Shown here: positions 10,141 to 15,436 of the stretch, piece after piece | Layout: each line of letters starts with the position of its first letter | Position numbering within the stretch: the stretch's first letter is position 1 | From: Clostridia bacterium | GTDB lineage: Bacteria > Bacillota > Clostridia > TANB77 > RGIG9151 | Length of the DNA: 47,704 nt | Direction of reading: 5' to 3' | Assembly: GCA_017450465.1 (NCBI GenBank) | Contig: JAFSUW010000016.1 | Location: 1-47,704, forward strand | Notes under the pieces: model-generated | Seen by the model: the letters and a program-made list of their open reading frames with translations, nothing else | The model's database searches: none | What the model was told of the DNA's origin: nothing | Translations under genes and position numbers: made by a program

Positions 10141-10169
10141 AGTATAACATAATAAATTTTAGAATTCTA
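10141..10169 (-). promoter_or_regulatory. Probable promoter of the acetyltransferase-mcrBC operon
   Basis: TAGAAT, 17 bases, TATACT on the minus strand. The -10 box is good and the -35 box weak. It lies directly after the terminator at 10182-10209. Confidence 0.45.
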
Positions 10170-10181
10170 TACCTAAAAAAA

Positions 10182-10209
10182 GGCCGATAGCATGTTACTG
10201 CTATCAGCC
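10182..10209 (-). terminator. Bidirectional hairpin terminator after the AcrVA2-like gene
   Basis: Stem GGCCGATAGCA / TGCTATCAGCC with a 6-base loop and one mismatch. A run of seven T follows on the minus strand, and AATTTTTATTTT on the plus strand. It separates the G+C-richer block from the mcrBC operon. Confidence 0.85.
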
Positions 10210-10214
10210 AATTT

Positions 10215-11198
10215 TTATTTTACATGATTCACAACGGGAAGTTCGTCGTCCTTCATCTCGTTTACAAGAACCGGTGCAACAAACTTTACCCTTCTTTCCG
10301 TCTTGCCTTTTCCGCAAAGATACGTATGCCAGTGTGCTTTTCTCCAGTGCATACGCGGTCTTTTTCTTTCGCCTGTCTTTTCTTTTGCTTCTTCCTCTTC
10401 GGCTTCTTCTTCCGCGTCTTTCTTTGCTTTCGCGTGTTCTCTTACCACACGATAACCAACGTCCCACTTACGAAGTTCGGAGAACTTGTTACGCACAGTA
10501 GTGCTCGGCTTATATATCTTTTTCTGTTCCGGGTTTTCCTCAACATCCGAATTCGTGGAACACAGATACATCATGCTTTGCAAAACAAGCGCGATTACTC
10601 TTAAATACTCGTCTAACTTTTCACGTTCTTCTTCTAATACTTCCACCCCTTCTAGTTCGTCAAGAATATTGTGATACGACTTTATTATGCCAAAGTCTAT
10701 TTCACCAGATACGATATTTTCACGTTTGGCGAAATTGTTATAGCACACAGTGTACATCAAAGTCTGCTTTTGGGGGGTATACTTTGCCAACACGCCATGG
10801 ATATCTGCTCGATTGGGGATTTCAAGATAAAATGCGTTGAACGGAAGATAGTCGAAAAGATTGGCATCAATTTCGAAATCGTCCATATCGTAAAGCATGT
10901 CACAGAATTCTTTCGAAAAACTGTACACCTGCTTTGATTTTATCCAGTCTTTTGACACAATTACGAAGATTGTATCATTGAACATCTTGGCCCCGACAAA
11001 GTCTACGCCTTCATCGGTTTGCATGCTTATACCCCTTTGATTACAAATTCTAAGTATGTCATCTCTTACCATGCCCATAACTGCTTCGAATTCATCAATC
11101 GGTTCAACATTTAACGCACTTGCCTTTTCGTAAATCTTGGGGTACTCGGTCTCGATCCGCGCGATGGTCCTAAACGGCACATACTTTTCTTGTTTCAT
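10215..11198 (-). CDS. AcrVA2-like protein (anti-CRISPR family resemblance)
   Basis: A 327-residue cytosolic protein. The C-terminal segment RMHWRKAHWHTY (about 282-293) with the following charged strand and PVLVN resembles, from memory, the conserved C-terminus of the AcrVA2 family, whose founder blocks Cas12a; the length is also about the same. A Lys/Glu-rich linker (about 252-278) separates this from an N-terminal region I do not recognise. The start is ATG 11198, because AAAGGA lies 6 bases upstream; a longer in-frame extension to 11423 lacks a ribosome site. AcrVA2 relatives occur widely on plasmids and phages, and most have no proven function. It lies 196 bases below the first cysteine-module gene. 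No Cas12a or CRISPR array is in the window. Confidence 0.6.
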   Translation of the reverse strand: MKQEKYVPFRTIARIETEYPKIYEKASALNVEPIDEFEAVMGMVRDDILRICNQRGISMQTDEGVDFVGAKMFNDTIFVIVSKDWIKSKQVYSFSKEFCDMLYDMDDFEIDANLFDYLPFNAFYLEIPNRADIHGVLAKYTPQKQTLMYTVCYNNFAKRENIVSGEIDFGIIKSYHNILDELEGVEVLEEEREKLDEYLRVIALVLQSMMYLCSTNSDVEENPEQKKIYKPSTTVRNKFSELRKWDVGYRVVREHAKAKKDAEEEAEEEEAKEKTGERKRPRMHWRKAHWHTYLCGKGKTERRVKFVAPVLVNEMKDDELPVVNHVK

Positions 11199-11394
11199 GG
11201 CCTGTCCTTTCGTATGAATAAAATTTTGATAAACTTGATTTTTCGCCTTCAAATATTGCACTATGTTTTTACATAATTTTGAAGAACGAATTTTGAACAA
11301 TGGCGTGATAACGGCAAAATAAGCGCGTGCTATTTTTACATAATTGTGGTCAATTGCCCCCGTCCCTTTTGACAGACGTGTCCCTGCTGATATT

Positions 11395-11994
11395 TTACAT
11401 CTCGTAATAATTGCATCTTTCACTTTTTATTTTATCGTAGCATTTGTCCACAAGTTTTCTACCCGTATATTCGCATTTTCCTTCTTTCGCGAACGGGCAC
11501 AAATAATCTTCGTGTTTTTCAAGTTTACTAAGATAAAATATACAGTGCTGATATTCCTCTTCATTATAACAAGTATCAAGGAAAAGTGGCATTTCGGAAG
11601 ATGCACATCGTGTTTTTCCAGCGAACGGGCAACACGGTTTTCGTGTATCCTCTAACTCTACACTCTGCTCCTTTTTTGTTTCTCCGGATGCTCTATGGTA
11701 AAAAGGGCATGTCTTAAACTGTTTTGCATCATAGCAATCACTACTAACAGATAGTCCTATCAAACATTTGTCCTTTGCATCCATATAACATACAGGTTTA
11801 TCGTTTTTAGCGGCCACGAGATGAAATACACTCGCTTCACTTGTGTTTTCTTCAGCAGCAAACTGGCATGTTGTTTTTTTCTTTTCTTCACACGTCCTTT
11901 CAGAATTACTATCGAATGGGCATTTGTTTTGGCACTCACTTTTTAGCGTGCAGAAAACTTCACCCTTACGAATTGAGATATATGGTGAAAACAT
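11395..11994 (-). CDS. Cysteine-module protein 1 (no CFI-box tail)
   Basis: A 199-residue protein with 20 or more cysteines and no signal peptide. After an N-terminal segment MFSPYISIRKGEVFC shared with module protein 2, it carries three clear copies of a four-cysteine unit of the form C-x7-C-x(9-11)-C-Y-x7-C-x-[FY]-Y, starting near residues 69, 123 and 165, for example CPFAKEGKC ... DKCYDKIKSERCNYY. The spacing suggests a metal-binding, zinc-ribbon-like fold. It stops right after the last module, where its two paralogues continue into a CFI-box-type domain. GGGAGG precedes the ATG by 5 bases; it has its own promoter and leader. Function unknown. Confidence 0.7.
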   Translation of the reverse strand: MFSPYISIRKGEVFCTLKSECQNKCPFDSNSERTCEEKKKTTCQFAAEENTSEASVFHLVAAKNDKPVCYMDAKDKCLIGLSVSSDCYDAKQFKTCPFYHRASGETKKEQSVELEDTRKPCCPFAGKTRCASSEMPLFLDTCYNEEEYQHCIFYLSKLEKHEDYLCPFAKEGKCEYTGRKLVDKCYDKIKSERCNYYEM

Positions 11995-12015
11995 AAAAAC
12001 CTCCCAAAATAAAAA

Positions 12016-12026
12016 ACGTCCTCTTG
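12016..12026 (-). promoter_or_regulatory. Shared leader box, copy 1
   Basis: Minus-strand CAAGAGGACGT in the untranslated leader, about 35-45 bases after the predicted start of transcription. The same box (CARGAGGACGT) occurs in the leaders of the other two cysteine-module genes at the same distance. AATC occurs upstream of it in all three. Confidence 0.55.
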
Positions 12027-12066
12027 GACAAGAACTCCCAGATTGTTTTTGCTTATTTTACGTTTA

Positions 12067-12095
12067 ATAATACCACATTATGTAAATAAAGTCAA
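12067..12095 (-). promoter_or_regulatory. Promoter of cysteine-module gene 1
   Basis: TTGACT, 17 bases, TATTAT on the minus strand. The first 16 spacer bases match those of gene 2 except for one base. Confidence 0.8.
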
Positions 12096-12122
12096 TGTGA
12101 ATGGCTTCTATAAAGTAAAAAT

Positions 12123-12151
12123 AAACCCCTAGGGGGTTACCCTTGGGGTTT
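12123..12151 (-). terminator. Terminator of cysteine-module gene 2
   Basis: Nested stem AAACCCC/GGGGTTT enclosing GGG-TAAC-CCC, then TATTTTTA on the minus strand. It starts a few bases after the stop codon. Confidence 0.85.
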
Positions 12152-12157
12152 TTCGCT

Positions 12158-13126
12158 TTACTGACTTTCGTCAAGCAAGGTCGCGAGTTTATCTACATAG
12201 TCCCGATAGTGGTTGTGTGCCTCTGCATACTTGTGGTCCTCGATGAGTTTTACGCAGGGCTGAACCAATTCGGTGTAGATTTTGTCGTAGATTTCGTTTT
12301 TGTCCGGTCTTTTGTCGATTGCGGCAACCACATACGGCGCCGTCATATAGTACTTTTGTACGTCATCTCGTCCGACTTCGAACGTGCGAAGATATTTGTC
12401 GCGATACTCGCGAAGGAGATTTAACTCGTAGCAGTTATCCGAAAGGCCTTTATTTCTGATGCAAGCAGTGCTGATGAAACATTCCTGGTCTTCGGGCTGC
12501 TTATAGAAGATGCACTCTCTACATTCCACCTGATCGTAGCACTTGTCTACAAGGTCGTAGCCAGTGAACTTGCATTTTCCGTCATCTGCAGACGGGCAAA
12601 CGAAGTCTTTATCGGCCGTCCAGACAAGGTTGTAGAACGGGCAGCGAAGATACTCCTCTTCAGCATAGCATCCAACGAAGAGTGGTGCTTTCGTAGAGAG
12701 GCAATGCGTTCTACTTGCACAGGGGCAAGCAGATTCAGGCATTACCGATCTCGGCTTCGGTGCTTCTTCCTTCTTTTCCGTGGGTGGCTCCGCATAGAAT
12801 TGGCATTCCTTGGAACGTGCCTCATCATAGCAGGCGTCATAGAGTGCTGGACAACCAGCCATGCACTTATCATGGATAGCCCAAGTGCAGACCGGTTCAC
12901 GCTTACATTTGCTCACATGAGTTGCGGTAAGCCGAAGCTTACCTTCGCTAAGACTGTAGGAAAAGGTAGCCGGCTTGTCGCCTTTCGCAAGCGGGCAAAC
13001 GAACTTTTCTTCCCCACCCTAGGTCTTTACGATTTCAACCTGACAGCAAGGGCACTTCGTAACGTGTTCGCCTTTGAGCTCACAGTAGATGTGCCCATCA
13101 CGAATCGAGATGTACGGTGAAAGCAT
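12158..13126 (-). pseudogene. Cysteine-module protein 2 with CFI-box tail, interrupted by in-frame TAG
   Basis: A reading frame of 323 codons including the stop. ATG 13126 has GGAGG 7 bases upstream and starts MLSPYISIRDGHIYC, matching module protein 1. Codon 36 is TAG (13019-13021). The same frame then continues to the TAA at 12158 and stays similar to protein 1 on both sides of the TAG. Three four-cysteine modules follow, starting near CTWAIHDKC, CPCASRTHC and CPSADDGKC. The end is a CFI-box-type domain (CFISTACI, then LLREYRDKYL). The open part after the TAG has only a GTG at 12916 without a ribosome site. It is either a nonsense mutant or read through. Base composition is clearly G+C-richer than in flanking genes. 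Function unknown. Confidence 0.65.
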
Positions 13127-13167
13127 GATAAACCTCCATATGATTTAAGTTATCGATATGCTTAAAT

Positions 13168-13178
13168 ACGTCCTCCTG
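13168..13178 (-). promoter_or_regulatory. Shared leader box, copy 2
   Basis: Minus-strand CAGGAGGACGT, about 35-45 bases into the leader of cysteine-module gene 2. It is identical to copy 3. Confidence 0.55.
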
Positions 13179-13218
13179 TTGAAAAGGTTCAGGATTGCCT
13201 CAACCCATTTTCTGCTAT

Positions 13219-13247
13219 ATATTATCACGTTATGTAAATAAAGTCAA
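13219..13247 (-). promoter_or_regulatory. Promoter of cysteine-module gene 2
   Basis: TTGACT, 17 bases, TAATAT on the minus strand, placed just after the terminator at 13258-13282. Confidence 0.85.
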
Positions 13248-13257
13248 TAAAAAAACA

Positions 13258-13282
13258 CCCCCCGGTATTTCTACCGGTGGGG
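13258..13282 (-). terminator. Terminator downstream of cysteine-module gene 3
   Basis: Stem CCCC-A-CCGGTA / TACCGG-GGGG with a GAAA-type loop, then TGTTTTTTTATT on the minus strand. It lies about 215 bases after the stop of gene 3. Confidence 0.88.
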
Positions 13283-13497
13283 CTACGCAAGCATGCAGAT
13301 GGGGGCTACACGCTCGTGGTCGATTTTAATGTTTACCGATTGCAGCAATATGGTAACGCTTGCTAATCAGTATAAAAGGTATCTTTTCCTTCCTTCTTCC
13401 TCAAGTAGGCCTATTTGCCAAAAGTTTCATCTGGCACTGGTTGTTACACCAGTGCAGCGGCTAAAAGAATAAGCCAATGATTTGTGCTGCCTATTTT
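13283..13497 (-). other. Structured untranslated region after cysteine-module gene 3
   Basis: About 215 bases with no reading frame of note. They contain a perfect 8-base-pair hairpin, GCACTGGT/ACCAGTGC (13434-13455), a GGCT/AGCC stem with GCAGC/GCTGC pairing around it (about 13453-13490), and other short stems. The region ends in a strong terminator. It could be a long 3' untranslated region or a small RNA. No known RNA family was recognised. Confidence 0.4.
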
Positions 13498-14082
13498 TTA
13501 ACCTTTTAAGAATTCCGAAAGTTTCTCCACACCATCCCGATAGAAGTAGTGCGCTTCCGCGTACTTTTTGTTTTCCACAAGGGTAACCATGGGAAGAACA
13601 AGATCGGAATAAATGTGCTCGAGGATTTCGTCCTTGTCGGGTCGTTTGTTGATTTCGGCAACCATGCCGGGTGCAACCCGATAATAATCTTGTACGTCCT
13701 TTTCTCCGAGCTCAAAAGACTGGAGATAAGTGTCGCGATAATGACGAAGCGTCTGAAGTTCGTAGCAATCATCCGGCAAGCCCTTGTGATTGACGCAAGC
13801 CGTCGTCAGAAAGCATCCCGAACTGGAGCTATCATCATCATTAGGTTCCGAGCCACCATAGTGGACGCACGAACGGAAATTAACGCAACTAGAGTCAACT
13901 CTTCCGCCGCCTCTATCACACCATGTTCCCTGACCATACGGACAGTTCGTAATTACACGAGGATTAGCACGGCTGTAATAGGTGCAACTCTCGTCGTCGT
14001 ACGGGCAATAGAAACTAATGTAGCCGTGTTTCGCGCTACAATAATCATACCCGTTTTTTGTGCCGTAATACTTGCAAGGCAT
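13498..14082 (-). CDS. Cysteine-module protein 3 with CFI-box-type C-terminal domain
   Basis: A 194-residue protein. Residues 1-75 have two looser copies of the cysteine module (CKYYGTKNGYDYC ... CPYDDESCTYY and CPYGQGTWC ... CVNFRSCVHYG). A short Asp/Ser linker (DDDSSSS) follows, then a CFI-box-type domain from CFLTTACV (about residue 90) through LRHYRDTYL and INKRPDKDEI to the end. That domain matches the tail of module protein 2 closely. AGGAGG precedes the ATG by 7 bases. It has its own promoter and a leader of about 170 bases with hairpins. Codon use is G+C-rich compared with the surroundings. CFI-box tails occur on many otherwise unrelated Firmicute proteins, and their role is not established. 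Confidence 0.7.
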   Translation of the reverse strand: MPCKYYGTKNGYDYCSAKHGYISFYCPYDDESCTYYSRANPRVITNCPYGQGTWCDRGGGRVDSSCVNFRSCVHYGGSEPNDDDSSSSGCFLTTACVNHKGLPDDCYELQTLRHYRDTYLQSFELGEKDVQDYYRVAPGMVAEINKRPDKDEILEHIYSDLVLPMVTLVENKKYAEAHYFYRDGVEKLSEFLKG

Positions 14083-14252
14083 GACAAGCCCTCCTGAAGA
14101 AAAAGATTTTGATTCCCCATGCGTAGTAAGGTTTTCCCAACCTGGGCCATAAAACGTACATGTTCCTTGCTAGGGAACTTGCCTGGTATATTTTCGCTTC
14201 ACACGTCCTCCTGTTTTCATACCGATTAGGATTTGTATGTAAATCCTTTACG
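14083..14252 (-). promoter_or_regulatory. Long structured leader of cysteine-module gene 3
   Basis: About 170 untranslated bases from the predicted transcription start to the ATG. Visible stems are GGATTT/AAATCC (14229-14246) and GTTCC/GGAAC (14162-14178), plus a GGTT/AACC stem near 14130-14145. The leader box lies between the first two. It matches no riboswitch class I can name. Confidence 0.4.
14203..14213 (-). promoter_or_regulatory. Shared leader box, copy 3
   Basis: Minus-strand CAGGAGGACGT, about 40-50 bases into the leader of cysteine-module gene 3. Confidence 0.55.
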
Positions 14253-14257
14253 CCCTC

Positions 14258-14286
14258 ATATTATCATATTTTTTATGAAACGTCAA
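14258..14286 (-). promoter_or_regulatory. Promoter of cysteine-module gene 3
   Basis: TTGACG, 17 bases, TAATAT on the minus strand. It lies directly after the terminator of the YoaP-like operon. Confidence 0.85.
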
Positions 14287-14300
14287 TATATAACAAAAGA

Positions 14301-14316
14301 GGCGATGTTTATCGCC
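14301..14316 (-). terminator. Terminator of the YoaP-like operon
   Basis: Perfect 6-base-pair stem GGCGAT/ATCGCC with a four-base loop, followed by TCTTTTGTTA on the minus strand. The arm and its flank resemble the mcrC palindrome. Confidence 0.7.
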
Positions 14317-14325
14317 CCTACAAAC

Positions 14326-15069
14326 CTATTTAAGCAATTTTTCTAGTGCATTTGCATTAAGTATTGTGTTTGAAATGAACTTACCTTTATAGAAGTTGGC
14401 CCAGTTATTAAATACACATGGTGCGTTTTTTGCCTTTTCAAGTGAATCTATTTTTACAAAATTTAATTTCATTCCCTTTTCTTTTGCGTAATCTGTTAAT
14501 TCTTTTACTTCGTACTCTACATAAGGGCATTCTGGACTATAATAAATAGTGAAGTCTTTACTTTCTATCTCCATCTTCTTGGCATTATCGTTAAACCTTG
14601 GTGTATCACTCTTATCAAACGATAGTGCAAGTAATTCATAATCGCCTATGCTATCTACTACCTTAAAACCATAGTGTTCAAAGAATGCTTTCTCGCCTAA
14701 AAATGGTTTCTTCTTTTTAGCAACTAGTGTACACATACCACTTTTACTTTTTTTCTTTGAATCATCTATTGCATACTCAAGTAGTTCTTTTGCAATTCCT
14801 TTACCCTTAAAACTTCCGGCAACCCACAAACAATAAATATATTCATAATTTTTGCCACTAACTGGTGCCCATGCTGTTTCTATTGGTTCATACTCAATAA
14901 ATATTTTTCCTCTTGCATCTAATCTCCTAAATGCATGACCATCTTTTAACTTTTCCTTTATCCATTCTTTTTTTCTGTCTACACCATCTTGATGCTTTTT
15001 ATCGCCTATTGCACAGCAAATGTGCTCATCATCAATATTTTCTAAAGTTAAGTTTATGTATTTGTTCAT
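14326..15069 (-). CDS. YoaP-like GNAT acetyltransferase with thioredoxin-like tail
   Basis: A 247-residue two-domain protein. The N-terminal half is a GNAT fold with acetyl-CoA motif WVAGSFKGKGIAKELL. The C-terminal part (from about 180) reads FTIYYSPECPYVEYE and then KGMKLNFVKIDSLEKAKNAPC, the layout of the YoaP domain, a thioredoxin-like addition seen on a subset of acetyltransferases. The start is ATG 15069 after AGGAGGAATAAAG; an in-frame extension to 15120 overlaps the upstream gene and lacks a ribosome site. It is last in a three-gene operon with a coiled-coil protein and a HAD phosphatase. Substrate unknown. Stop is TAG, followed by a terminator. Confidence 0.85.
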   Translation of the reverse strand: MNKYINLTLENIDDEHICCAIGDKKHQDGVDRKKEWIKEKLKDGHAFRRLDARGKIFIEYEPIETAWAPVSGKNYEYIYCLWVAGSFKGKGIAKELLEYAIDDSKKKSKSGMCTLVAKKKKPFLGEKAFFEHYGFKVVDSIGDYELLALSFDKSDTPRFNDNAKKMEIESKDFTIYYSPECPYVEYEVKELTDYAKEKGMKLNFVKIDSLEKAKNAPCVFNNWANFYKGKFISNTILNANALEKLLK

Positions 15070-15088
15070 CTTTATTCCTCCTAAAAGA

Positions 15089-15436
15089 TTAGTCTTTATT
15101 AAACAAATTAAGTGCTTCACCTATCAATAAATAATCCGCCGTTTTAGATGTTTCTTTTGCGTGATAATTTATGCCCGATATATTTTCGCAAATAGTACTA
15201 TTAATTTTTTTATTTTCTTCTAAATTCTTATTTAATTTTATTAATTCAATTAACATTTTCCCCATTAGTTCTTTTTCTGATAAGGACATTAGTTTTTTCC
15301 ATTCTTCAAGACGTTTTTGTTCTTCACGTCTTTTTGCCTCTTCTTCTTTTTTCCTTTTTTCCTCAATTCCTTTTAAGCGCTCTTGCTCTTTTTGCTTCTT
15401 CTCTTCTTCCATTTTTTCTTTTAATTTGCTAAACAT
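15089..15436 (-). CDS. Small Lys/Glu-rich coiled-coil protein
   Basis: A 115-residue protein. Residues 1-50 are a long charged helix (repeated KKEEE, RREEQKR), probably a coiled coil, and the remainder is mixed helical with one cysteine and no membrane segment. It lies 13 bases after the HAD phosphatase gene and 19 bases before the YoaP-like gene, so all three share a transcript. The ribosome site GGTGG is moderate. I do not recognise a family; low complexity makes similarity hits unreliable. It is a real gene by operon placement and uninterrupted frame. Confidence 0.65.
   Translation of the reverse strand: MFSKLKEKMEEEKKQKEQERLKGIEEKRKKEEEAKRREEQKRLEEWKKLMSLSEKELMGKMLIELIKLNKNLEENKKINSTICENISGINYHAKETSKTADYLLIGEALNLFNKD

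Follow-up and report, generated by a model that had tools for sequence, protein, structure and literature searches.

Three related genes encoding small, cysteine-rich proteins lie on the minus strand of the window, that is, of the whole 47,704-nt stretch of DNA from a small-genome Clostridia bacterium that was analysed. Open reading frames are present at 11395-11994, 12158-12916 and 13498-14082, encoding proteins 1, 2 and 3 (P1, P2 and P3), respectively. Cysteine makes up 9.0% of P1, 7.8% of P2 and 5.7% of P3, compared with 0.96% in the remaining proteins of the window. P1 (199 aa, 18 Cys) consists of an N-terminal Cys region and three strict copies of a four-cysteine module, without a CFI-box tail, and P3 (194 aa, 11 Cys) of two divergent modules and such a tail. 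Together with an AcrVA2-like gene (10215-11198, minus strand; 327 aa, ATG at 11198), the three genes make up a GC-rich islet at positions 10150-14320.

P1 and P2 each contain three copies of the strict repeat unit, C-x7-C-x9-11-C-Y-x7-C-x-[FY]-Y, as the original prediction had stated (modules 1 to 3 at 11692-11799, 11527-11640 and 11398-11508 in P1 and at 12785-12898, 12626-12736 and 12494-12607 in P2, all on the minus strand). When the residues of each protein were shuffled, at least one strict copy was obtained in none of 20,000 shuffles for P1 and in one of 20,000 for P2, and at the DNA level the x10 form was found four times in the window versus not at all in 100 shuffles. The spacing, which had been described as constant, in fact ranges from x9 to x11. 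P3 contains no strict copy. Of the two looser copies that had been proposed for it, one was recovered (residues 47-74, at 13852-13953 on the minus strand; C-x7-C-x10-C-x5-C-x-H-Y, a form reached in 21 of 20,000 shuffles), and the second turned out to be a divergent N-terminal set, C3-x11-C15-x10-C26-x6-C33-x-Y-Y. None of the three proteins has a segment hydrophobic enough to serve as a signal peptide or membrane helix (maximum KD19 0.9). Combined with a cysteine content of 6-9%, this means that soluble cytosolic metal sites fit better than secreted disulfides. Each module of about 33 residues would most likely be built around a single zinc ion, with the four cysteines as ligands; in the AlphaFold predictions, the modules have pLDDT values below 50 in both models.

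The P2 gene is longer than the open reading frame at 12158-12916, which begins with a GTG codon that no ribosome site precedes. The true start lies 210 bases upstream in the same frame, at an ATG at 13126 behind a good ribosome site (GGAGG), so that the full gene covers 12158-13126 on the minus strand and comprises 322 codons plus a stop. Its N-terminus is P1-like: the first nine residues match those of P1 at 8 of 9 positions (MLSPYISIR/MFSPYISIR), and the N-terminal part overall aligns with 40% identity. Upstream of the GTG, the frame is open as far as the ATG except for a single TAG codon at 13019-13021 (codon 36). Since 12 of the 37 tabulated open reading frames of the window terminate with TAG, this codon must be regarded as an ordinary stop in the host, and the P2 gene is therefore probably broken. 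A nonsense mutation is the simplest reading, and an assembly error is possible. A broken middle gene also suggests that current selection on the array is weak.

The three Cys-module genes are tandem duplicates that have retained copies of their promoter. That is, each gene is preceded by one promoter-like site of the form TTGAC-17-TATTAT/TAATAT on the minus strand, at 12067-12095 for P1 (TTGACT-17-TATTAT, a copy of the sites upstream of P2 and P3), at 13219-13247 for the P2 gene (TTGACT-17-TAATAT) and at 14258-14286 for P3 (TTGACG-17-TAATAT). The three paralogues also share a leader motif, CARGAGGACGT, located some tens to more than 100 bases 5′ of the start codon (within 12020-12130, 13170-13260 and 14205-14290). 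The RNA leader matched no Rfam family above the gathering threshold and showed no unusual folding. A terminator-like hairpin, readable on both strands, is found 3′ of the P2 gene at 12116-12148. At the protein level, the modules of P1 and P2 pair one to one in order, with identities of 35% (M1/M4), 47% (M2/M5) and 49% (M3/M6), which implies that the three-module string predates the split between P1 and P2. The two sequences differ by a pS of 0.88, near saturation, versus a pN of only 0.41, indicating that the protein sequence has been conserved; for the tails of P2 and P3 the values are 0.64 and 0.29, respectively. In P3, residues Y5, G11 and C15 of the N-terminus (MPCKYYGTKNGYDYC) are in register with P1 and P2.

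The prediction that P2 and P3 end in a CFI-box tail was fully borne out: the NCBIfam model NF041770 (CFI_box_CTERM) scored 52.3 bits for P2 and 51.5 bits for P3 against a curated cut-off of 40. The tail domain lies at 12170-12487 in the P2 gene and at 13504-13818 in the P3 gene (both minus strand). In P3, the CFI box itself is C-terminal, covering residues 90-161 of 194, and in both proteins a profile of the extended tail runs to within a short distance of the stop codon. AlphaFold predicts that P3 residues 90-193 form a domain of five helices, with a pLDDT of about 96, and a fold search with the P3 model gave no PDB or viral match at E-values up to 0.001. Compared with CFI-box-CTERM proteins in general, the P2 and P3 tails retain the landmarks CF[IL]xTA, DxCxEL, LRxFRD and YYxxAP and differ by a TAC-x8-DxCYEL sequence, and the Cys module was found on none of the other CFI proteins seen. 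The possibility that the start of the CFI box is a derived module was considered and dropped, as the module profile does not detect it.

Relatives of the tail are numerous in phages. Outside the window, the closest relatives of the P3 tail are mostly forms from viral contigs, with 38-48% identity, and a Pannonibacter plasmid protein is among the top matches. Altogether, the CFI tail was found at 79 viral-contig loci. It ends tape-measure proteins (phrog_3547) at two loci (L116, 2273-4300; L129, 758-4303), is present in a phage-record protein of 994 residues whose gene lies between those for the portal and the major capsid protein (L097, 1412-4396), and occurs in viral proteins of 310-390 residues, one of which is encoded with a tail gene upstream (L107, 3137-4279). 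In bacteria, the tail is attached to a kinase-like protein with zinc ribbons, Sel1-type repeats, a zinc-ribbon protein, a cold-shock-type protein and a Nif11-like leader, these domains having been recognised by eye. Such a variety of unrelated bacterial settings dilutes the link to phages. In one case (L055/L092; G778:C17, about 94915-95238), the CFI box stands behind a Nif11/NHLP-type leader ending in AVAGG, again as read by eye, and the sequence suggests a peptide-export or RiPP context for this one protein. On an E. coli plasmid, a CFI-box protein is encoded in an operon with two dynamin-family genes (L096, 1-4315). No paper on the CFI-box domain was found in the open literature searched.

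Unlike the tail, which has relatives in phage and plasmid records, the module appears from sequence comparison to be essentially an orphan. In agreement with the claim that it is undescribed, no match over cut-off was obtained in Pfam, NCBIfam, PHROGs, PADLOC or the PDB. Modules were absent from 98 relatives searched with P2 and from 391 genomes of the class searched with P1, and in 398 genomes of the phylum the module profile gave one match only, covering 22 residues of a 33-residue frame (E=6e-4; G792). The profile search of genomes that had been proposed, run on about 500 relatives, yielded weak resemblances only. The best outside match (E=4e-4; G093) is a 46-residue clostridial protein with five cysteines, whose C-x7-C-x10-C-x4-C-x-Y-Y core (e.g. 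L179) resembles the module; unlike P1-P3, this protein is single, short and without a tail. Its wider family is present in 18 of 59 relatives, mostly with the third core cysteine missing, and the similarity between its profile and the module profile fell from E=5e-5 with two sequences to a weak E=3e-3 (probability 10%) with 18 sequences. When 84,980 species genomes, possibly without near copies of the source genome, were scanned with a strict pattern, four matches were obtained, all attributable to chance; as the pattern demanded a C-P start and x10 spacing, looser relatives could be missed. In viral contigs, the module pattern matched 34 times, with an open frame in five cases, all of which look like chance open reading frames, and neither P1, P2 nor the P1/P2 alignment had any relative there. 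Likewise, P1 had no relatives in phage and plasmid records and the P3 head gave chance-level matches only. The mobile origin considered below therefore rests on GC content and the neighbour gene.

Two known cysteine domains were also considered. DUF1540 (PF07561), a short Firmicute cysteine domain of a size like that of the module, gave no Pfam match and no profile-profile similarity (hhalign E=0.19 over 3 columns). Prok-RING_4 (PF14447) aligned with 19 residues of P1 at 11.6 bits versus a cut-off of 27, which was taken as chance; it was the only sub-cut-off match, and no Pfam cysteine domain exceeded its own cut-off in P1-P3.

The islet (4.2 kb) has a GC content of 42.7% versus 31.2% for the remaining contig, where the highest value for a stretch of equal length is 35.1%. 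Restriction systems and an anti-CRISPR-like gene had been reported to adjoin the array, and type I HsdM/HsdS genes, McrB/McrC genes and the AcrVA2-like gene were indeed confirmed. The GC content of the flanking restriction genes is host-like, which places them outside the islet. Neither an integrase nor a target-site repeat was recognised at the edges of the islet. At 14326-15120, a GNAT/YoaP-type gene shows about 78% DNA identity to genes of two other genomes (G002 and G010), with different neighbours in G002.

The AcrVA2-like gene matches phrog_6160 (E=7e-17). A profile of four homologues matched AcrVA2 (7ci1) with an E-value of 1.1e-4 over the C-terminal 70 residues only; as a whole, the protein shows little similarity to AcrVA2, and its gene does not belong to the Cys family. 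AcrVA2 reduces Cas12a mRNA in a translation-dependent manner (review PMC13131331). Homologues of the islet gene are found in another genome (G005; 44%) and as a second copy in the source genome, and no match was obtained in viral contigs. In G005, the homologues sit in further GC-rich islets, in one of which (L069, 9204-12227) the AcrVA2-like gene stands beside a metallophosphoesterase-like gene, as read by eye.

The account that we tentatively favour brings these features together. The islet would be small and probably recently acquired, most likely from a higher-GC phage or plasmid, and would carry the AcrVA2-like gene and three tandem duplicates, each with its own promoter, that encode soluble cytoplasmic proteins made of Cys modules. 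The string of putative zinc modules may present a binding surface for a protein or a nucleic acid. The five-helix CFI-box domain that follows the modules in P2 and P3 is common to phage tape-measure and virion-region proteins and to varied bacterial proteins, and would most likely serve for docking or targeting. If carried by a mobile element as accessory cargo, the three proteins may act in conflict between phage and host or between element and host, with P1 and P3 intact and the P2 gene now carrying a nonsense codon. The original prediction that the tandem array and its neighbours constitute an undescribed system is not supported in the sense of a working system of three genes, given the in-frame stop in the middle gene, the position of the restriction genes outside the islet and the lack of clear relatives of the module. 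Overall, a genuine, undescribed Cys-repeat head sits on a known tail, probably as cargo of a mobile element, with one of the three copies probably broken.

The alternative to be taken most seriously, if still an unlikely one, is that the array is debris of a decaying mobile element, that is, passenger DNA without present function. The TAG codon in P2, the foreign composition and the absence of a second occurrence from the roughly 500 relatives searched are all consistent with decay. However, P1 and P3 are undamaged, each with a promoter-like site and a good ribosome site, the P2 frame is otherwise open across its 322 codons, and the paralogues are conserved at the protein level. It is more doubtful that the genes belong to an anti-phage defence array that also includes the type I restriction and McrBC genes nearby. 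Defence genes do lie within about 10 kb and the CFI box adjoins dynamin-family genes on E. coli plasmids, but the islet differs in composition from the restriction genes, which are host-like, and PADLOC gave no match for P1-P3 or the AcrVA2-like protein.

Rather improbable, too, is a role in metal storage or buffering, in which the Cys-rich strings would be metallothionein-like sponges and the CFI tail would merely stabilise or localise them. A cysteine content of up to 9% and the many modules per protein would suit such a function, and repeated gene copies would raise dosage. Typical metallothioneins, however, are unlike the pattern of P1-P3, in which cysteine spacing is fixed, Y and [FY]Y are conserved and C-C or C-x-C pairs are few; moreover, the whole protein sequence is conserved, and no metal-resistance gene was recognised alongside. 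Finally, it is very unlikely that full-length P2 is made by readthrough or recoding of the TAG (e.g. as glutamine, inherited from a TAG-recoding phage ancestor), because, even though the frame stays open before and after the codon and the part flanking it is still conserved relative to P1 (pS 0.83, pN 0.46), TAG serves so widely as a stop in the window, and P1, P3 and the AcrVA2-like protein have no in-frame TAG, unlike the genes of recoded phages.

P1-P3 represent a conserved and undescribed four-cysteine repeat family that joins the heads carried by the CFI-box tail, and phage tape-measure proteins and other proteins of the virion region are capped by this tail as well. It is conceivable, at rather long odds, that the modules are a new zinc-binding repeat fold and that CFI-tailed proteins are conflict effectors or virion cargo, the CFI helical domain being their shared docking or delivery part; the islet would then combine this tail with a head of Cys repeats not seen before, next to an AcrVA2-like gene. 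The CFI box is a widespread, uncharacterised domain, and the Cys-repeat family together with the tape-measure and virion-region proteins provides concrete objects on which its role may be tested.
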